Assembly: GCA_020721205.1 (NCBI GenBank)
Contig: DYNF01000008.1
Location: 1-47,130 of the forward strand
From: Prochloron sp. SulCav_FS08_3_32_3330
GTDB lineage: Bacteria; Cyanobacteriota; Cyanobacteriia; Cyanobacteriales; DYNF01
Length of the DNA stretch: 47,130 nt
Direction: 5' to 3'
The position numbers were made by a program, and so were the translations under genes. Below are positions 20,392 through 45,230 of this stretch, piece after piece (within the stretch, counting starts at the first letter, position 1; each line of letters opens with the position of its first letter). Below the pieces are notes generated by a model. That model had not been told where the DNA came from. It searched no databases and was given only the letters and a program-made list of their open reading frames with translations.

Positions 20392-21720
20392 ATGAGAACA
20401 ATTAATTCCTTTTTCAAAGTATTTGAAAGTCGCAAAATTGTGGCGTTATTATTGCTTGGTTTTGCCTCTGGTTTACCCTTATTTTTAACCAGTAAAACCC
20501 TTCAAGCTTGGATGACTGATGCAGGAGTAGACTTAACTTCCATCGGTTTATTTAGTTTAGTCGGTTTACCCTACTCTTTAAAATTTATTTGGTCTCCTTT
20601 AATGGATCGTTTTGTCCCTCCATTTTTAGGTCGTCGTCGAGGTTGGCTCTTAATAACTCAGATATTATTGGTAATTGCAATCGCAATTATGTCTGTTCAA
20701 AAACCAAAAGAAGCCTTATTTTTTGTAGCGATTAATGCTCTATTAATCGCTTTTTTTAGTGCCAGTCAAGACATAGTAGGGGATGCCTACCGCACCGATG
20801 TGCTTGAAAAGCCTGAAATGGGTGCAGGAGCGGCGGTATTTGTCCTCGGATATCGGATCGCCTTATTAGCGACAGGGGCATTAGCTCTGATTTTAGCAGA
20901 TCAGATGTCATGGAATTTAGTTTACCTCTGTTTAGCCGGATTAATGTCTCTCTGTATAGTTTTTACCCTCTTTGCCCCGGAGCCAGAAGAAGATAATAAT
21001 GCCCCTCAAAGCCTTGTAGATGCAGTAATTTTACCATTTAAAGAGTTTTTTGAGCGATCGGGAATTACTGCCGGAGCATTAATGTTACTATTTATTGTCC
21101 TCTATAAACTCGGAGATGGCTTATTAGGAAATATGGCAACGCCTTTTTTATTGAGTCCAGAAATGAGCTTTAGTAAAACAGATATTGGAGCGATACAGGG
21201 TGGAATGGGGCTATTAGCAACAATTGTCGGCACTTTAGTCGGTGGCTCAATTATGAGTAAAATCGGAATTAATAAATCTTTATGGCTCTTTGGAGGCTTA
21301 CAAGCGATTAGTAATTTAGCCTATTTTGTCCTTGCGCAACTATCTCAAAATTATCAATTAACAGAATTAGCTCAGAAATATCAATTTTCAGAAATACCAT
21401 CCTATTATCAAGTTATGGTAATTTCAATTAATATTGAAAACTTTTGTGGAGGTTTAGGCACAGCCGCATTTGTTGCCTTTTTAATGAGTTTATGTAACCA
21501 CAAATTTTCCGCCACTCAATATGCTTTATTATCCAGTCTTTATGCAGTAAGTCGAGATATTTTAGTCGCCCCCGCAGGTAAATTAGCAGATACAATTGGC
21601 TGGTCAAATTTCTTCTTATTTTCCTTAATTATTGCTATCCCCGGCTTATTATTATTACCTTGGTTTGCCCCTTGGAAACCTCAATTTGTAGATATTCCAC
21701 GTCCGGGAAAAGATAATTAG
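20392..21720 (+). CDS. AmpG-like major facilitator transporter
   Basis: The 442-residue protein has twelve predicted membrane helices. The AmpG-branch start is visible: LLLGFASGLPLFLTSKTLQAWMTDAGVDLTSIG, then LKFIWSPLMDRFVPPFLGRRRGW with the MFS loop 2-3 basic motif. SQDIVGDAYRTDVL near residue 125 is also typical. AmpG proteins import anhydromuropeptides for peptidoglycan recycling in enterobacteria; cyanobacterial relatives are annotated the same way, but substrate is not proven. The hydrophilic insert after helix 10 (TELAQKYQFSEIPSYYQ) is characteristic. The start ATG at 20392 leaves little upstream hydrophilic sequence, as expected. Confidence 0.85.
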   Translation: MRTINSFFKVFESRKIVALLLLGFASGLPLFLTSKTLQAWMTDAGVDLTSIGLFSLVGLPYSLKFIWSPLMDRFVPPFLGRRRGWLLITQILLVIAIAIMSVQKPKEALFFVAINALLIAFFSASQDIVGDAYRTDVLEKPEMGAGAAVFVLGYRIALLATGALALILADQMSWNLVYLCLAGLMSLCIVFTLFAPEPEEDNNAPQSLVDAVILPFKEFFERSGITAGALMLLFIVLYKLGDGLLGNMATPFLLSPEMSFSKTDIGAIQGGMGLLATIVGTLVGGSIMSKIGINKSLWLFGGLQAISNLAYFVLAQLSQNYQLTELAQKYQFSEIPSYYQVMVISINIENFCGGLGTAAFVAFLMSLCNHKFSATQYALLSSLYAVSRDILVAPAGKLADTIGWSNFFLFSLIIAIPGLLLLPWFAPWKPQFVDIPRPGKDN

Positions 21721-21724
21721 GAAT

Positions 21725-21747
21725 AACGATGTCAGGTTTCTCCTACA
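21725..21747. repeat. Solitary terminal repeat of the 189-bp MITE
   Basis: This 23-bp segment (AACGATGTCAGGTTTCTCCT then ACA) is a right-hand end of the MITE found at 21843-22031, without the rest of the element. It lies 4 bp past the transporter stop codon. Confidence 0.75.
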
Positions 21748-21758
21748 ATTTTAAATTT

Positions 21759-21821
21759 GTAAGGTGAGCAACTTTTTAATATTTAATAATTGATATTTTT
21801 ATTCTGAAATGTTGCCTATCC
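21759..21821. repeat. GGTGGGCAACT-type mini-element
   Basis: The unit starts GTAAGGTGAGCAACTTTTTA and ends ATTCTGAAATGTTGCCTATC, so its ends are inverted (GGTgaGCAAC against GTTGCctaTC). It is about 63 bp long and very AT-rich inside. Related copies lie at 22088, 22707, 23023, 27960, 41817, 42877 and 43764. Confidence 0.75.
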
Positions 21822-21842
21822 GATCAAATCATTTTTAATAAC

Positions 21843-22031
21843 TGTAGGGGAAACCTGGCATCGTTAATTTATGATACAAAAAAATAACCTAATAAATGTC
21901 ATGCCCAACCCAATATGTAAATTTTATCAATATTAATTATTTTTTTGTTGTTAATTTAATAATGAGACGGGCATGACAAAATATAATTGATCTTCACAAA
22001 TATAATTTAATGATGTCAGGTTTTCCCTACA
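21843..22031. mobile_element. 189-bp MITE-like element, copy 1
   Basis: Terminal inverted repeats of 25 bp (left TGTAGGGGAAACCTGGCATC then GTTAA; right its complement) match at about 22-23 positions. A second, inner inverted pair is GTCATGCCC at 21898-21906 and GGGCATGAC at 21969-21977. The interior is over 80 percent AT and has no gene. A second copy is at 22779-22967 and a solo end at 21725-21747. Confidence 0.82.
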
Positions 22032-22045
22032 TTTTGTTAAAATCT

Positions 22046-22083
22046 AAAAAAAGTCGGGGATTTGTTAAATCCCCGACTTTTAA
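22046..22083. terminator. AGTCGGGGATTT hairpin inside R1
   Basis: Arms AAAAAGTCGGGGATTT and AAATCCCCGACTTTT enclose a four-base loop (GTTA). This is the strongest stem in the region and would stop transcription from either side. It is duplicated in R2 at about 22982-23018. Confidence 0.85.
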
Positions 22084-22087
22084 ATTT

Positions 22088-22150
22088 GTAAAGTGCGTAA
22101 CTTTTTAATATTTAATAATTAATATTTTTATTCTGATATGTTGCTACTCT
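22088..22150. repeat. GGTGGGCAACT-type mini-element at the right edge of R1
   Basis: The unit begins GTAAAGTGCGTAACTTTTTA and ends TGATATGTTGCTACTC. It is a more diverged member of the family at 21759, directly upstream of the antitoxin promoter region, where TATAAT occurs at 22172-22180 within GTTATAATAATG. Confidence 0.7.
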
Positions 22151-22208
22151 ATCAATTATTTAACAATTCTGTTATAATAATGAAGTAGTCAATTTATCAA
22201 TTAAAATT

Positions 22209-22427
22209 ATGACCAATTTATTAACAGAAGCTTTTAATAAAGCACAAACTTTACCAGAGTCTATTCAAAATGAATTAGCTCAACAATTAATTGAAGATAT
22301 TGAAAATGAATTAAAATGGCAAAAAACTTTATCAAAACCAAATTCTTTGTTTGAAAAATTAGCAAAAAAAGCATTAAAAGATTCTAAAGAAGGAAAAACT
22401 AAAGTTATGGGTATTGATGAGTTATGA
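22209..22427 (+). CDS. Antitoxin-like protein of a RelE/ParE-type pair
   Basis: The 72-residue acidic-basic helical protein starts MTNLLTEAFNKAQTLPESIQNELAQ. This helical N-terminal pattern is common in cyanobacterial antitoxins paired with RelE-superfamily toxins. The lysine-rich C-terminal tail (KLAKKALKDSKEGKTK) would be the disordered toxin-binding part. Its stop codon overlaps the start codon of the next gene (ATGA, 22424-22427), so the two are translationally coupled. The pair lies between two near-identical 316-bp repeats. The family assignment comes mainly from the gene partner. Confidence 0.75.
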   Translation: MTNLLTEAFNKAQTLPESIQNELAQQLIEDIENELKWQKTLSKPNSLFEKLAKKALKDSKEGKTKVMGIDEL

Positions 22428-22696
22428 AATCAGAATTAACAGATGAATTTTTAGAATGTTTTGCTAATTTACCCGAAAGAGTTAAACAAACAGCCAGAAA
22501 AAATTATCAACTTTGGAAAGAAAATCCTTATCATCCTAGTTTAGAATTTAAAAAACTAAATACAAAAGAGCCATTATATTCCGTTAGAATTGGAATAGGT
22601 TGGCGTGTAGTAGGAGTTTTAAAAAATCCAGATACAATTATTTGGTTTTGGATTGGTTCACATAATGAATATGATAAATTACTTAAAAATTTCTGA
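22424..22696 (+). CDS. RelE/ParE-superfamily toxin
   Basis: The 90-residue protein has the small RelE fold pattern: an N-terminal helical pair (FLECFANLPERVKQTARKNYQLWKENPYHPSLEFKKL) followed by beta strands YSVRIGIGWRVVGVL and a final IIWFWIGSHNEYDKLL. The helix-strand arrangement, the RIGIGWR strand and the closing histidine-containing strand match the ParE/HigB-like group. RelE relatives cut mRNA on ribosomes, whereas ParE relatives poison gyrase; the target here cannot be assigned. It overlaps the upstream antitoxin by 4 bp. Confidence 0.85.
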   Translation: MKSELTDEFLECFANLPERVKQTARKNYQLWKENPYHPSLEFKKLNTKEPLYSVRIGIGWRVVGVLKNPDTIIWFWIGSHNEYDKLLKNF

Positions 22697-22706
22697 AGAA
22701 ATTGAG

Positions 22707-22757
22707 TAAGGTGCGTAACTTTTTAATATTTAATATTTTTATGCTGATTACCCACCC
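22707..22757. repeat. GGTGGGCAACT-type mini-element, left of R2
   Basis: This shorter copy begins GTAAGGTGCGTAACTTTTTA, has lost part of the interior and ends GATTACCCACCC. It occupies the position in front of R2 that the 21759 copy occupies in front of R1. Confidence 0.7.
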
Positions 22758-22764
22758 GATCAAC

Positions 22765-23080
22765 TCATTTTTAATAACTGTAGGGGAAACCTGGCATCGT
22801 TAATTTATGATACAAAAAAATAACCTAATAAATGTCATGCCCAACCCAATATGTAAATTTTATCAATATTAATTATTTTTTTGTTGTTAATTTAATAATG
22901 AGACGGGCATGACAAAATATAATTGATCTTCACAAATATAATTTAATGATGTCAGGTTTCCCCTACATTTTGTTAAAACCTAAAAAAAGTCGGGGATTTG
23001 TTAAATCCCCGACTTTTAAATCGGTAAAGTGAGTAACTTTTTAATATTTAATAATTAATATTTTTATTCTGATATGTTGC
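22765..23080. repeat. Long direct repeat R2 flanking the toxin-antitoxin pair
   Basis: This is the second copy of the 316-bp segment described at 21829-22144, in the same orientation and about 98 percent identical by eye. It contains MITE copy 2 and the hairpin at about 22982-23018. Confidence 0.93.
22779..22967. mobile_element. 189-bp MITE-like element, copy 2
   Basis: It differs from copy 1 at one base in the right terminal repeat (TTTCCCC here, TTTTCCC there). That change makes the right end a better match to the left, so copy 2 is closer to the likely ancestral element. Confidence 0.82.
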
Positions 23081-23087
23081 CCCCCTA
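23023..23087. repeat. GGTGGGCAACT-type mini-element at the right edge of R2
   Basis: It begins GGTAAAGTGAGTAACTTTTT and ends GATATGTTGCCCCCCTA. It is the R2 counterpart of the 22088 copy and stops about 17 bp before the convergent lipoprotein gene ends. Confidence 0.72.
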
Positions 23088-23104
23088 CAAACTACAAAAA
23101 TAAA

Positions 23105-23641
23105 TTATTCAGAACAAGAGTTATTAATATCTTCTAAGATTTTATTCTCTAATTCTAGTGTTTCTAAATATTTCTTACTATAGTTTACAAGAACAGAACG
23201 ATTTTGTTCTATACTTGATTGATCGTTTATTCTTGCAATATCTTCTTTATAAAGATTAACTATGTTTTTTCTTTCATTTTGAATATTAATAAATTCATCT
23301 TTAAGTTTTGTTAAAGACTCATCTTTTAATTCTAAAGTAATAACAAAAGTTTGTAATGCCATATCAGACATTTCATAGGCACTTTCTGTATTTACAAGAA
23401 TTGATTGATTTATTGGATATAGCTTTTCTATATCTGGAATTGTTAAGTTAGATTTCAGTACATTTCCAAACTCATTGATTTGGTCTTTTGTATTAACATC
23501 ATTGTTTTTATTGATCTGTGTGACTCTATTTATTGCATTATATAAATTCTCACATTTTGTTTGTTTTGAAGAATCACAGCTTATTAACACAAAAGAAGAA
23601 ATAAATGTGATCAAGAAAAGTTGTATTATTTTTTTATTCAT
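23105..23641 (-). CDS. Putative lipoprotein of unknown function
   Basis: The 178-residue protein has a lipoprotein signal peptide (MNKKIIQLFLITFISSFVLISC) with the lipobox LISC and Cys-22 as the lipidated residue. The mature part is helical and charged, with two further cysteines (Cys-29 and, near the end, NNSCSE), and could form a disulfide. I do not recognise the family. It is convergent with the toxin gene across R2. Very low GC and Lys/Asn/Glu-rich composition fit the accessory stretch it sits in. Confidence 0.7.
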   Translation of the reverse strand: MNKKIIQLFLITFISSFVLISCDSSKQTKCENLYNAINRVTQINKNNDVNTKDQINEFGNVLKSNLTIPDIEKLYPINQSILVNTESAYEMSDMALQTFVITLELKDESLTKLKDEFINIQNERKNIVNLYKEDIARINDQSSIEQNRSVLVNYSKKYLETLELENKILEDINNSCSE

Positions 23642-24537: not shown

Positions 24538-25911
24538 ATGAATATTAAGGAAATGTTACAAATGGTTGATCATTGGGTATTTGCTGAGACGGATCAACAT
24601 TTGGATGATTTACAAAAAACTATTATTGAGGAAATATCTCAGGGTAAAACCTATAAACAAATAGCTGATCTTTATGGTTATCATGAAAATTATGTCGGTG
24701 ATGAAAGTAGAAAGTTATTTAAAATATTATCGGAAAAGTTAGGAGAAAATATTAATAAACATAATTTTTTTTGGACTTTTGAAAGAGTAACAGATCATTC
24801 TCAAGGTTTTAATGTTATTAATGCTAATCTTAATTTATGTCATAATCATCAAACTTCTAATAATAATAATTCTAACTATCATAAACAAAAATCTAATTTT
24901 AAAGATTTAACTTTAGCTCCTCAAATCTTTAAATTTTATAATCGAGAAACTGAACTTAAAAACCTTAATAATTACATATTTAATCAAAATATTAAATTAA
25001 TTTCAGTTTTAGGATTATCGGGTATTGGTAAAACTTATTTAGTTAAAAGATTTGTAGATTTAAACTTAGATAATTTTGAAGTAATTATTTGGAAAAGTTT
25101 AAAATATCCTAAATCTTTAGATTTATTAGTTAATGATTTATTGAAAATTTCTAATGTAGAGACGTACCATGGTACGTCTCTACAAAAAAATGAAACTTAT
25201 CTACAAAAATCTTTAGATGATAAATTAAAACAATTATTTGATCTTTTCACTCAAAAAAAATGTTTAATTATCTTTGATAATATAGAAACTATCTTTATAA
25301 AAGAACAATTTGCTGGACAATATCAAACTAAATTTAAAGATTATCAAGATTTATTTACTATGATTACAGAAAATGATCATCAAAGTAATTTAATTTTGAT
25401 TAGTCAAGAATCTTGTGCCGAAATGCAAAATTTAGATCAAGATTTAACTATAGTTAAATGTTTAGAATTATCAGGTTTAAATGATGTTGATATTTTAACT
25501 AATTTAGGTTTAAAAGATGAGGATAGTTGGTTAAAATTAGTTAAATTATATCAAGGGAATCCCCTTTATTTGAAAAAATATATTTCGCCATTAATTAAAA
25601 ATATTTTTGCGGGTAAAGTTACTGATTTTTTACAAGAAAATACTTTATTTTTAACCGAAGATATGAAATCTCATTTAAGAGAAATATTTGATAGATTATC
25701 ATTAATCGAAAAGCAAATTGTAACAGAATTAAGTAAATTTGATCAACCTATTAGTAGAGAAAATTTAAGACAAAATTTAGATTTATCTTTTATGGATTTA
25801 GTCATGGGATTACAGTCTTTAAAGCAACGATATTTATTAACAAAAATAGAAGAAGAAACAGTTTTATTTAGTTTATCTCCAATCTTAAGAGAATATGTTA
25901 AGAAAAGCTAA
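24538..25911 (+). CDS. STAND-type NTPase with vMAP-like N-terminal helix-turn-helix
   Basis: This 457-residue protein carries an N-terminal domain (about 1-85) of the type called vWA-MoxR-associated N-terminal HTH, with the segment DLQKTIIEEISQGKTYKQIADLYGYHENYVGDESRKL. An NB-ARC-like NTPase follows, with Walker A GLSGIGKTY at 159-167, Walker B KCLIIFDN at 241-248 and a winged-helix part at about 380-455. Relatives known to me normally continue into WD40 or TPR repeats that act as sensor; here the protein ends after the NTPase, so it is either a natural short form or a truncated one. Residues 207-215 are encoded by a perfect palindrome. Confidence 0.82.
   Translation: MNIKEMLQMVDHWVFAETDQHLDDLQKTIIEEISQGKTYKQIADLYGYHENYVGDESRKLFKILSEKLGENINKHNFFWTFERVTDHSQGFNVINANLNLCHNHQTSNNNNSNYHKQKSNFKDLTLAPQIFKFYNRETELKNLNNYIFNQNIKLISVLGLSGIGKTYLVKRFVDLNLDNFEVIIWKSLKYPKSLDLLVNDLLKISNVETYHGTSLQKNETYLQKSLDDKLKQLFDLFTQKKCLIIFDNIETIFIKEQFAGQYQTKFKDYQDLFTMITENDHQSNLILISQESCAEMQNLDQDLTIVKCLELSGLNDVDILTNLGLKDEDSWLKLVKLYQGNPLYLKKYISPLIKNIFAGKVTDFLQENTLFLTEDMKSHLREIFDRLSLIEKQIVTELSKFDQPISRENLRQNLDLSFMDLVMGLQSLKQRYLLTKIEEETVLFSLSPILREYVKKS
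25156..25183. repeat. Perfect 28-bp palindrome inside the STAND coding sequence
   Basis: The left half, GTAGAGACGTACCA, and right half, TGGTACGTCTCTAC, are exact complements. The form TAGAGACGT...ACGTCTCTA is that of a short repeat common in intergenic DNA of many cyanobacteria. Here it sits in frame and encodes about nine residues (VETYHGTSL) between two NTPase motifs. Confidence 0.92.
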
Positions 25912-41896: not shown

Positions 41897-42103
41897 TTAA
41901 GCTATCTGTAAAGATCGGGATTCTGGTAAAGGTTTTCCTATTTGTTCATAACCATAAATTAAATCCTCTAACACTTCTTGAGCATTTTTGAGAGCTTCTT
42001 CATAACTTTCACCATGAGTCCGAGCGTAAGATCCCCACTCAGGCAAAAAAGCGATATATAGCTGATCTTCTTCAGACCATTGAATTAAAATACTATATTT
42101 CAT
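41897..42103 (-). CDS. hicB: HicB-type antitoxin
   Basis: The 68-residue protein has the HicB pattern: MKYSILIQWSEEDQLYIAFLPEW, then ARTHGESYEEALKNAQEVLEDLI. The N-terminal part is the RNase-H-like HicB fold; no C-terminal DNA-binding domain is present, as in short HicB proteins. It would neutralise the HicA toxin encoded just upstream. Start and stop codons of the two genes overlap by 4 bp, which indicates coupling. A mini-element lies 14 bp past its stop codon. Confidence 0.9.
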   Translation of the reverse strand: MKYSILIQWSEEDQLYIAFLPEWGSYARTHGESYEEALKNAQEVLEDLIYGYEQIGKPLPESRSLQIA

Positions 42104-42324
42104 AATTGATCTCCTTGCTCTAATTGTTCAACTTCTTTAATACCTTTCATTATATCTTTTTCTTGGTAAGGTTGAGCATCTTTGTTATCTTTGCCAGATA
42201 AAACTATTGGTTTTGATAAAAGAGGATGAAGCCAATAAGAATGACTGCCTTTTCCTCTTTTTGGTAAAAGATAAAATCCAGCTTTTTGTAACATTTGTTT
42301 TAATTCTCTAATTTTTTTTGGCAT
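42100..42324 (-). CDS. hicA: HicA/YcfA-family mRNA interferase toxin
   Basis: The 74-residue protein has the double-stranded-RNA-binding-like HicA fold pattern: KKIRELKQMLQKAGFYLLPKRGKGSHSYWLHP. The catalytic histidine lies in the conserved GKGSHSYW. HicA toxins cut mRNA and tmRNA without the ribosome. Order here is toxin then antitoxin, which is usual for hicAB. The pair looks intact. Confidence 0.92.
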   Translation of the reverse strand: MPKKIRELKQMLQKAGFYLLPKRGKGSHSYWLHPLLSKPIVLSGKDNKDAQPYQEKDIMKGIKEVEQLEQGDQL

Positions 42325-42362
42325 TAGTGATCATTAATTTTTATTGACAATAGATTAAATAT

Positions 42363-42401
42363 TTATTTAACACTTGGAATACCTAAATCTTTACGTTTCA
42401 T
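42363..42401 (-). pseudogene. Remnant of a second HicA toxin gene
   Basis: An ATG at 42401 overlaps the stop codon of the HicB-like gene (ATGA, 42398-42401), the same coupling as in toxin-antitoxin operons. It opens with Met-Lys-Arg-Lys-Asp-Leu, a typical HicA start, then runs six more codons (GIPSVK) to a stop. The rest of the toxin is missing. Only this 12-codon tag survives. Confidence 0.6.
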
Positions 42402-42610
42402 ATTGCAATTTTTTCCTCTCTGTAATTATTACTAGCGGCAGAAATTGCATCTTGACGATTAAATTCTAAAGCTTCCTGAAGTGTAATTTTTAAACTTTCA
42501 AGTAATTCTTCATAAGATGCTTCCTGACAGTTAACTCCCGGAATTTCTTCGATCCATCCGATCCACCAACCGTTATTTTCTTGTATAAGAGCCGTATATT
42601 GATTAATCAT
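42398..42610 (-). CDS. HicB-family protein, apparently without its toxin
   Basis: The 70-residue protein has the HicB core: YTALIQENNGWWIGWIEEIPGVNCQEASYEELLESLKITLQEAL. It is a different subtype from the 41897 protein, as the two share only the fold pattern. A toxin gene would be expected directly downstream. Only a 12-codon HicA-like tag is there, so the antitoxin may be an orphan protecting against related HicA toxins, or just a decaying gene. Confidence 0.85.
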   Translation of the reverse strand: MINQYTALIQENNGWWIGWIEEIPGVNCQEASYEELLESLKITLQEALEFNRQDAISAASNNYREEKIAI

Positions 42611-42876
42611 AATAATTTTTTGGTAATTAGTAATATAATGTAATTAATTTTGCAATGGAAAAACTAGAAAAATATGCTCTAATTATTGTATTTTTGATCT
42701 AATGATTCAGATCTAAATTATACACAGATTTTACCTAAAGTAATAAAACCTAAAACATATAATAAGTAATTATACGATGGGAAGGTGATCGCCCGATAAA
42801 AAAAGTTACTCCTATTTTCAGTAATCTTTAACAACAAGACTAAAACTTTAAAAAAAGCCCTGACTTTTCTGTTTTA
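42611..42876. other. Gap in the toxin-antitoxin island, no intact gene
   Basis: This AT-rich DNA is upstream of the orphan hicB. It carries a short GC-richer stretch (GGGAAGGTGATCGCCCGAT near 42779). At its right end lies a decayed copy of the AGTCGGGGATTT arm (AAGCCCTGACTTTTCTGTTT, from about 42855). No open frame of note. Confidence 0.5.
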
Positions 42877-42943
42877 GTAAGGTGGGCAACTATTTTAAAT
42901 TAAATTATTAAAAATAAAATTAATTTAAGTTACCCACCCTACC
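42877..42943. repeat. GGTGGGCAACT-type mini-element (island copy 2)
   Basis: It starts GTAAGGTGGGCAACTATTTT and ends AAGTTACCCACCCTACC. It is about 85-90 percent identical to island copy 1 by eye and lies 21 bp past the stop codon of the small gene below. Confidence 0.85.
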
Positions 42944-42963
42944 AACTAACTTTTAAGCAAAAT

Positions 42964-43152
42964 TTAATCATTTGATTGTCTTGTTTTAAAAGATGGATCA
43001 ATTTTTTTAGGCGGTAATGTTATAACTTTTCTGCCACTAGCATCTTGTTTTTTTTGCCAATCAGCGAACATAGCATCTAAATCGTAGTTAAATAAGCGAT
43101 CGTGTTCTTCTCGAAATTTATGAATTTCATCTACAATTTCATCATTCCACAT
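42964..43152 (-). CDS. Small partner protein of a PIN-domain toxin
   Basis: The 62-residue acidic-basic protein starts MWNDEIVDEIHKFREEHDRLFNYDLDAMFADWQKKQ. It has no DNA-binding domain that I recognise. Its gene starts 3 bp past the stop codon of the PIN gene, so the two are surely one operon. The position and helix-plus-tail design fit an antitoxin that follows its toxin. IVDEIHKFREEH-type proteins commonly follow PIN genes in cyanobacteria. Confidence 0.7.
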   Translation of the reverse strand: MWNDEIVDEIHKFREEHDRLFNYDLDAMFADWQKKQDASGRKVITLPPKKIDPSFKTRQSND

Positions 43153-43155
43153 AGT

Positions 43156-43629
43156 TTAATCTCCTAATAGTTCATAAGGTGTACAAATTATCGGTAAATT
43201 ATAGCCAAATTCTAAACTAATTTGAGTTAGTTTTTTTTGAATTTGAGCGTTAGCAATATGTTTGCAATTCCATGTTAACAAATAATCTATTTCATGAACA
43301 GTAGCCGCCGCAATATGAACTGAGTCTTCCGATGCTTTAGAGGGCAGATTACTTCTTTTTAGAAACTCTGCTGATAAATTGCGTACAGATTGATTTAATT
43401 CTAATAAAGGTAGTCCGTTGAGTAATTCTAATCTTTTTAAGGCAATTTCTTGATCTCCTCTTGTTACTTCATCAACAACAACCTGTGAAATATAAAGACT
43501 AAAATCATTACGGCGATTTTGCCACCAAGCTTGAGTAATTTCCATATTAGCAGATAGAATCCTATTTTGAGTCTCTCTAGCTGTTAAATAGCCTAAAATA
43601 CTTGTTTCAATATAAATGGTTTCTTTCAC
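43156..43629 (-). CDS. PIN-domain (VapC-like) ribonuclease toxin
   Basis: The 157-residue PIN-fold protein starts with MKETIYIETSILGYLTARE, where the first acidic residue of the site is Glu-8 in place of the usual Asp. SQVVVDEVTRGD near 53 supplies a Glu. The C-terminal KASEDSVHIAAATVHEIDYLLTWNCKHIANA supplies the last acidic pair. PIN toxins are metal-dependent RNases; the acidic cluster looks complete. It heads a two-gene operon with the small protein at 42964. Confidence 0.87.
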   Translation of the reverse strand: MKETIYIETSILGYLTARETQNRILSANMEITQAWWQNRRNDFSLYISQVVVDEVTRGDQEIALKRLELLNGLPLLELNQSVRNLSAEFLKRSNLPSKASEDSVHIAAATVHEIDYLLTWNCKHIANAQIQKKLTQISLEFGYNLPIICTPYELLGD

Positions 43630-43685
43630 AGAATTTGATCAAAATTATGTTTTTAATAAATCTAATTATATCTTATAACATTTAG

Positions 43686-43742
43686 GGTATGCCCTGCGTT
43701 TAATCTTTGATTCTCACCAATCAATTAAATACAGAGCATACC
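43686..43742. repeat. Imperfect inverted repeat upstream of the PIN operon
   Basis: GGTATGCCCTGCGTTTAAT (43686-43704) and ATTAAATACAGAGCATACC (43724-43742) are complementary at 16 of 19 positions, around a 19-bp centre. The site lies 57 bp upstream of the PIN start codon. It may be a small mobile repeat or an operator. Confidence 0.65.
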
Positions 43743-43763
43743 ATACCAATTATTAAATTAGGG

Positions 43764-43828
43764 AAAGGTGGGCAACTATTAAAATTTAATGATTAAAAAT
43801 AAAATTAATTTAAGTTCCCCACCCTACC
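43764..43828. repeat. GGTGGGCAACT-type mini-element (island copy 3)
   Basis: It starts AAAGGTGGGCAACTATTAAA and ends AAGTTCCCCACCCTACC. It abuts the 5'-truncated frame at 43814-44200 and seems to have replaced the start of that gene. Confidence 0.85.
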
Positions 43829-44200
43829 TATAAATTATGGCGTATTTTATCGAATGCGTTAGGAGAAGATGTTAATAGGTCAAATATTCAAGCTACAATT
43901 GAAAGATTAGGATTTGCTAATCAATCTATTACAGGAAATAAAGCACCAGTTATAGGTAGTAATAATATTAATTTTTGTCCTAATTCTGCAAAAAAAGAAA
44001 GTGATCTGATCAACGATAATATAGAAGATAATCAAACAAATTCATCTAATAATAAAAATGGTTATCAAGTTATAATTGAACAAGCACAAAAAAAAGTAAA
44101 ATTAGAGACAGTTCCCAAATTAATAAAAGCAGGTTTAAGTATTGAACAAATTACGGAAATGCTAGAATTAGAATTAGAGGAAGTTCAAAACCTAATCTAA
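43814..44200 (+). pseudogene. 5'-truncated gene, C-terminal tail like Rpn-family proteins
   Basis: There is an open frame of 128 codons with no ATG, GTG or TTG near its 5' end; the first in-frame ATG lies 11 codons before the stop. It reads LWRILSNALGEDVNRSNIQA and ATIERLGFANQSITGNKAPV near the start and KLETVPKLIKAGLSIEQITE near the end. The last part is the helical tail common in Rpn-type nucleases. I do not recognise the front part. A mini-element occupies the position of the lost 5' end. A degraded copy of the last 110 bp lies at 45115-45230. Confidence 0.7.
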
Positions 44201-44261
44201 TCATCTTTATTTTGTGTTAAACTATTGTCAATCATTAATTAATCTTAACTAATCTAAATTT

Positions 44262-44519
44262 ATGAATATTATTCTTAACTCCCGACTAGAAAATTTAATT
44301 CAACAACAAATCACTTCTGGAAAATATAACAATATTAATGATGTGATTGAAGATGCTTTAACTTTGTTAGAAAAACGCCATCAATATGATCAATGGGTTA
44401 AAGAAATTGGCGATAAAATTGATATTGCGGCTCAACAATTAGATCAAGGTGAAGGCATAAATAGCGATTTTGCGATTAAACAACTTCGCCAAAATTTACG
44501 TCAAACTAATGATAATTAA
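44262..44519 (+). CDS. parD: ParD-type ribbon-helix-helix antitoxin
   Basis: The 85-residue protein begins MNIILNSRLENLIQQQITSGKYNNINDVIEDALTLLEKR. This is the ribbon-helix-helix pattern of ParD antitoxins, where the beta strand at 2-6 contacts DNA and helices dimerise. The tail (QLDQGEGINSDFAIKQLRQNLRQ) would bind the toxin. It precedes the ParE gene by 8 bp and probably represses their promoter. Confidence 0.9.
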   Translation: MNIILNSRLENLIQQQITSGKYNNINDVIEDALTLLEKRHQYDQWVKEIGDKIDIAAQQLDQGEGINSDFAIKQLRQNLRQTNDN

Positions 44520-44527
44520 GGAAAATA

Positions 44528-44827
44528 ATGACTCAATATATTATTGCACCAGAAGCAATACAAGACCTCAAAGAAATTACACATTATTTGGCTAATTTTA
44601 ATCTTGATACTTCTGAAAATTTCCTTAACCAATTTGAAACAAAATGTCGTTATTTAGTACAGTTTCCCAAAATTGGACGCAGTTATAAGCAAATTCGCTC
44701 TTATTTAAGAGGTTTACCTTTTAATGGTTATATTATCTTTTATCGTCTTGGTAATGATGTTATCGAAATTATGAGAGTTGTTAAAGGTAATCGTGATTTA
44801 GAAGCTCTTTTTGCTGATTATAATTAA
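44528..44827 (+). CDS. parE: ParE/RelE-superfamily toxin
   Basis: The 99-residue protein has the ParE pattern: YIIAPEAIQDLKEITHYLANFNLDTSENFLNQFETKC, then FPKIGRSYKQIRSYLRGLPFNGYIIFYRLGNDVIEIMRVVKGNRDLEALF. The RVVKGNRDL strand is typical for the family. Known ParE toxins inhibit gyrase. It forms an intact pair with the upstream ParD. Confidence 0.92.
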   Translation: MTQYIIAPEAIQDLKEITHYLANFNLDTSENFLNQFETKCRYLVQFPKIGRSYKQIRSYLRGLPFNGYIIFYRLGNDVIEIMRVVKGNRDLEALFADYN

Positions 44828-45114: not shown

Positions 45115-45230
45115 CGAAAAAAGTAAAATTAGACACAGTTTCTAAATTAATAAAAGCAGGTTTAAGTATTGAACAAATTGCCGAAATGTTAGAATTAGAA
45201 TGAGGAGAAGTACAAACTACAATAAAATAA
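45115..45230 (+). pseudogene. Degraded duplicate of the Rpn-like tail
   Basis: About 110 bp repeat the end of the 43814-44200 frame (KKVKLDTVSKLIKAGLSIEQ, then IAEMLELE). A premature TGA replaces one codon, and the rest of the frame (GEVQTTIK) continues after it. With the first copy it brackets parD, parE and the 68-residue gene as direct repeats. Confidence 0.75.

Follow-up and report, generated by a model that had tools for sequence, protein, structure and literature searches.

The window analyzed here is a 47,130-nt stretch of contig DYNF01000008.1 from the draft genome of Prochloron sp. SulCav_FS08_3_32_3330 (GCA_020721205.1). Between a gene for an MFS transporter and an oppositely oriented gene for a 178-aa protein, which had no family match, it contains two small ORFs enclosed by a pair of long direct repeats, R1 and R2 (Table 1). 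As in type II toxin-antitoxin (TA) systems of the ParDE/RelBE superfamily, the product of the downstream ORF passes the Pfam cut-off for ParE_like and a small putative antitoxin gene overlaps it upstream; unlike in those systems, the 72-aa antitoxin candidate matched no Pfam or NCBIfam model and the 90-aa toxin had no sequence relative among solved structures at E 0.1. We thus predict the two ORFs to be a type II TA pair, in which a candidate antitoxin gene adjoins one for a ParE-like toxin of the ParE/RelE kind. The pair has probably moved horizontally, since its close relatives (74–81% toxin identity) are found in both cyanobacteria and Gammaproteobacteria, e.g., Thiospirillum jenense.

Table 1. 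Features of the TA locus and of two further repeat-bracketed TA pairs, in coordinates of the window.
Feature	Position	Strand	Basis
Upstream MFS transporter gene	20392..21720	+	ORF; name read from sequence
MITE right-end remnant (TIR), before R1	21724..21751	+	repeat family D4
Mini-element M1, palindrome-ended, ~85 nt	21751..21833	+	nhmmer 66.2 bits
R1 core (spacer end, MITE, hairpin, M)	21829..22144	+	5 differences in 316 vs R2
MITE in R1, 189 bp, TIR TGTAGGGGAAACCTG	21843..22031	+	
GC hairpin in R1, terminator-like dispersed repeat	22049..22081	.	inverted repeat I3; near-exact genomic copies elsewhere
Mini-element M2, R1 right end	22081..22158	+	nhmmer 57.9 bits
Antitoxin candidate, 72 aa	22209..22427	+	ORF; kept beside toxin in relatives
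Predicted toxin, 90 aa, ParE_like PF24732	22424..22696	+	Pfam 1.8e-8
Mini-element M3 (shortened), directly after toxin stop, R2 left end	22700..22772	+	nhmmer 44.8 bits
R2 core	22765..23080	+	alignment to R1
MITE in R2	22779..22967	+	
GC hairpin in R2	22985..23017	.	
Mini-element M4, R2 right end	23016..23096	+	nhmmer 68.6 bits
Downstream gene, 178 aa, lipoprotein-like signal read from sequence	23105..23641	-	ORF
M element, 17 nt from PIN-pair stop	42869..42947	.	M profile
Second repeat-bracketed TA pair, PIN domain toxin just below Pfam cut-off	42964..43629	-	Pfam
M element, other side of PIN pair	43763..43834	+	M profile
parDE direct repeat, left copy, 100 bp	44090..44189	+	90% identical to 45117-45216
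Third repeat-bracketed TA pair, ParD-ParE	44262..44827	+	Pfam
parDE direct repeat, right copy	45117..45216	+	

The initial annotation had described R1 and R2 as non-coding 316-bp repeats at a constant offset of 936 with about five differences, and the ungapped alignment bears this out exactly, with five substitutions (22024, 22043, 22086, 22087, and 22096), no gap, and 98.4% identity. The two copies agree over the first 195 nt of the block, and all five differences fall within 22024-22096. In a search of the whole genome (4.73 Mb, a draft of 209 contigs) with R1 as the query, R2 was recovered at 594 bits and E 2.8e-170, which places the match far above chance. The inner order that had been read from the letters, a 189-bp MITE followed by a 33-nt GC hairpin and a 57-nt AT-rich mini-element (M), is present in both copies, and only the two overlapping ORFs of the predicted TA pair lie between them, with no transposase or recombinase. 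The repeat is longer than first described, however: homology extends leftward through an additional M copy and a spacer (21759-21828 and 22706-22764, with two gaps), giving a full unit at 21759-22144 and 22706-23080 of 386 and 375 bp that is 94% identical and ordered M-spacer-MITE-hairpin-M. The 316-bp block is therefore the best-conserved core of a longer homology rather than a sharp-ended unit, and divergence between the copies is uneven, the outer ends being the more different. An Rfam search of the window and a plasmid search with the R region returned no match.

Parts of R recur throughout the genome, where R1 has 87 partial matches. After R2, the next-best copies score 352 bits and less at 86–88% identity. 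As R1 has no other copy this close, we regard R1 and R2 as one local duplication and not as termini of a known transposon. The palindrome-ended element M, about 85 nt long with terminal inverted repeats GGTGGGCAAC...GTTGCCCACC, is present at 22 strong places; its profile gave 35 hits after merging over 704 kb of contig sequence, several of them weak or partial. Copies often lie 0–25 nt past a stop codon, both at TA pairs (ParE-like, BrnTA, HicBA, MazEF, PIN) and at some other small genes. The MITE, with ends TGTAGGGG...CCCTACA, is likewise dispersed, and six of its 16 genomic copies have mixed end types. We take M and the TGTAGGGG MITE to belong among the MITEs and small palindromic repeats of cyanobacteria, with which they share terminal inverted repeats and dispersal; unlike those, they make up one compound here, present twice with a gene pair between the copies. 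For neither element was a parent transposon identified. At L085 (3446-3686), an element with CCCACATTCCGC ends interrupts one M copy, with a possible 6-bp target duplication (TTTAAT).

The same modules bracket other TA pairs. M, MITE, or hairpin repeats flank a BrnTA pair (C39), a HicBA pair (C151), a HicA-like/DUF4365 pair (C137), a MazEF pair (C40), a YafQ pair (C4), and, within the window, the PIN pair, whose direct repeat spans 42879-42943 and 43765-43828 at 92% identity. A different repeat, of 100 bp, surrounds the parDE pair. These last two pairs lie in a run of TA genes at 41897-44827 (HicBA, DUF1902-like, PIN pair, ParDE), which has M and other repeats between its members and resembles a small array. 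A paralogue of the ParE-like pair on contig C69 (L394, 5842-6537) has a 110-bp repeat that is 99.1% identical, with one mismatch, and the TA pair fills the space between the copies. That repeat holds the promoter, ribosome-binding site, and first codons of the next gene, so that the antitoxin starts from the left copy and the next gene from the right, in which the toxin frame also ends; the toxin has an in-frame stop. As read from the sequence, this would be the clearest case of a repeat derived from the end of a host gene. Elsewhere (C4; L094, 4317-4602 and 5175-5460), direct MITE-hairpin repeats of 290 bp and 92% identity surround the YafQ-type pair, and the two MITE copies and two hairpins carry reciprocally exchanged arm types. 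The genome is TA-rich, with 31 scored HicA matches and nine BrnT matches. Bracketed small bicistrons numbered 13 of 33 on contigs chosen for their repeats versus 0 of 31 on contigs chosen blind to repeats, and among 12 TA loci picked by their family, four were bracketed.

Bracketing was then scored around homologues of the pair with a threshold of at least 40 bits, and sliding control windows on these loci gave the background rate. Homologues of the ParE-like pair had a direct repeat within 800 bp in 16/62 loci versus 118/7597 control windows (1.6%; binomial p 3e-14, a value that is too small because the loci are not fully independent, including as they do two Moorena genomes, several loci per genome, and the window itself). 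Within 400 bp, the counts were 13/64 versus 52/8137. The contrast is large despite this non-independence. When whole small genes or operons were used as controls, 19 of 637 were bracketed, and about half of these 19 units were TA-like by eye. An independent test of further families, with 1.5-kb flanks, found bracketing in 10/29 BrnT and 3/23 HicA loci, compared with 3/29 ABM and 0/27 GNAT loci (3/56 for the two non-TA families together; Fisher p 0.004 pooled). ParE-like and BrnT pairs show a clear effect, HicA a weak one.

The bracketing repeats differ from genome to genome, measuring about 22–390 bp and mostly 80–97% identical. They are dispersed elements in the window, in Moorena, and at loci L251 and L271; in the two Moorena genomes, the homologous TA pair lies between 82–87 bp repeats of the same end kind, GTAGGGTGGGC...GCCCACCCTAC. 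The genes neighboring these MITE-like repeats in Moorena (L131, L134) are phage-tail- or injection-system-like. At five other loci, the repeats look like target sequence of the host: at L135, a 119-bp repeat of the start of an acrB-like gene (its first ~108 bases); at L219, a 78-bp repeat of the start of gltD; at L214, a 118-bp repeat of the end of a porin gene and its terminator (all three gene names being read from sequence); at L275, the end of the upstream gene; and at L394, the gene start described above. The repeat at L255 has another origin, its left copy being a relic of another brnA gene.

These comparisons divide the proposal, made in the initial annotation, that the repeats and pair form a composite cassette that moved as a unit. 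In its favor, R modules occur elsewhere and bracket other TA pairs, and the enrichment of TA pairs between repeats extends to other genomes. No support was found for a composite transposon or mobile cassette whose fixed ends are R: R1 and R2 are each other's closest copies, no transposase or recombinase lies inside, homologous pairs in other genomes have other repeats, and four of the closest relatives (G012, G039, G019, and G016) match at the DNA level over the TA genes but have no R. No second intact R pair, only modules, turned up here or across 391 genomes from the order; among the latter, R gave weak module matches in two and neither an R-TA-R nor an empty-R locus. An M-spacer-MITE arrangement without a TA pair occurs in the Prochloron genome (C94). 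The opposite case that had been set out, in which both repeats are always kept and no R exists elsewhere, does not apply, since R modules do occur elsewhere.

A clean empty site, i.e., a single copy of the target without the TA pair, was found neither for the window nor for three compared cases (L219, L214, L205). The comparison for L214 gave only a porin gene without the pair, plus a TA remnant. For L205, sister species carry the unit rearranged or elsewhere, with a junction at the repeat end in G157 and no single-copy site. In genus g10, the repeat-bounded unit of G037 is present in G157, sequence that follows the left repeat recurs after the right repeat, and in three sister genomes the neighboring transporter gene is without the TA pair. 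The repeats were thus a place of rearrangement in this genus, although the event itself is not captured.

What is established here is how the repeats are built, that their modules are dispersed, and that direct repeats are enriched around homologous and BrnT pairs. We tentatively hold, at somewhat under an even chance, that the window is best read as a TA insertion with long target duplication; as no clean empty site was found, its mechanism, comprising insertion, gene conversion, and a stabilizing effect, is one that we infer. The spacer between the MFS transporter and lipoprotein-like genes would already have carried the dispersed-repeat compound M-spacer-MITE-hairpin-M when the TA pair inserted, R1 and R2 would be the duplicated target, and the two copies may later have been partly homogenized by gene conversion. 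The TA pair would be lost by recombination between R1 and R2, an outcome that post-segregational killing may disfavor. Direct repeats immediately around the gene unit, the pattern looked for under this reading, are present as R1 and R2 and are enriched around the pair's relatives. Against it stand the uneven divergence of R1 and R2, which one simple duplication does not predict, and the mixed origin of the bracketed cases, L255 among them. More broadly, the bracketed ParE-like and BrnT pairs suggest that such pairs can enter the chromosome without a transposase, through an insertion that duplicates a long target. That type II TA pairs of cyanobacteria, and some of other bacteria, are generally transposase-less cassettes that enter by long target duplication or by a single crossover at repeats, the bracketing repeats being the scar of entry and addiction shielding that scar from deletion, is conceivable but doubtful, a claim limited by the absence of bracketed small gene pairs (0/31) on random contigs.

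Insertion with long target duplication was reportedly described by Nobusato et al. in 2000 for restriction-modification (RM) genes of Helicobacter pylori. Three papers refer to such insertions of RM genes (PMC1643837; PMC4978471; PMC3031569). As in those cases, a small addiction-type unit without a transposase is bracketed by direct repeats, which at several loci look like target sequence; unlike them, the units here are type II TA pairs of ~0.5 kb, mostly cyanobacterial, with repeats of ~22–390 bp that are mostly 80–97% identical and with no empty site found, and the presumed target in the window is itself a dispersed-repeat compound. We found no report of long target duplication for TA pairs in a literature thin on subscription journals, and in PMC3874152, PMC2654758, and PMC3031569 the term occurs in the bibliography, where it belongs to the title of the RM paper. 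Resistance of a TA pair to deletion is a published stabilization model (PMC2654758). A recognizable insertion scar would make it testable how TA pairs enter chromosomes without mobility genes; such scars would map and roughly date TA entries, and close direct repeats that persist around addiction genes would offer a natural test of deletion resistance in chromosomal TA pairs.

The window's repeats are dispersed elements, so target duplication cannot be distinguished there from recombination at such elements. The main rival is a circle carrying the TA pair and one repeat that recombined once, Campbell-type, with a resident repeat, M or the MITE supplying the shared homology; this predicts the same final structure and is, in our estimate, somewhat unlikely. 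R-TA-R would on this view be the composite cassette of the initial annotation. It would account for the fact that M brackets unrelated pairs (ParE-like, BrnTA, HicBA, HicA-like/DUF4365, PIN, and MazEF, the last with a weak second copy), for the direct orientation of the M copies in the five pairs where orientation is readable, for the position of M 0–25 nt past the stop in most of these pairs, and for the Moorena repeats around the same TA homologue. It does not sit easily with the host gene-end repeats of other genomes, which are non-dispersed, nor with the many M copies that do not adjoin TA genes. The exchanged end types at the YafQ pair fit it too, but the pattern is not significant alone, and with mixed ends in 6/16 MITE copies we dropped it as proof of single-crossover integration.

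Less probable still, and on balance unlikely, is that MITE and M insertions came to flank a resident TA pair in a plastic intergenic region and were followed by local segmental duplication and gene conversion, the pair being a bystander where insertions are tolerated. The dispersal of the modules, the richness of the genome in TA genes, the occurrence of M just behind the stop codons of non-TA genes (C67, C39, C137, and window 23105), and the lack of bracketed pairs on random contigs all agree with this. Two independent compound insertions would not, however, be expected to be 98.4% identical and in the same order when other copies reach at most 88%, and the enrichment with other repeats in other genomes and the duplicated host gene ends would be left unexplained. 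Finally, that an assembler copied or smoothed the 316-bp repeat is very improbable: the assembly is a 209-contig draft and the five differences are confined to 22024-22096, but a single 67-kb contig contains both copies together with unique genes between and outside them, their outer ends differ, and similar structures occur in single-contig genomes, e.g., G037 (L205).

Insertion with long target duplication, our preferred reading, also has to be set beside the integron and superintegron TA cassettes, which are TA operons with their own promoter as reviewed in PMC2654758. Both arrangements place TA operons between recurring palindromic repeats, with deletion resistance proposed; unlike in integrons, M is without a recognizable attC core and has no constant orientation relative to the gene, and the repeats are not the same from one genome to another. 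M as an integron attC was rejected, its orientation being the same as that of some TA genes and opposite to others. Among genes other than TA pairs, a REP-associated tyrosine transposase-like gene on contig C135 (L177, 15402-16225) is bracketed by 92-bp direct repeats made up of palindromes, and on four contigs the M-rich loci have paralogous NB-ARC-type ATPases as neighbors (window 24538-25911; L085, L086, and L092).
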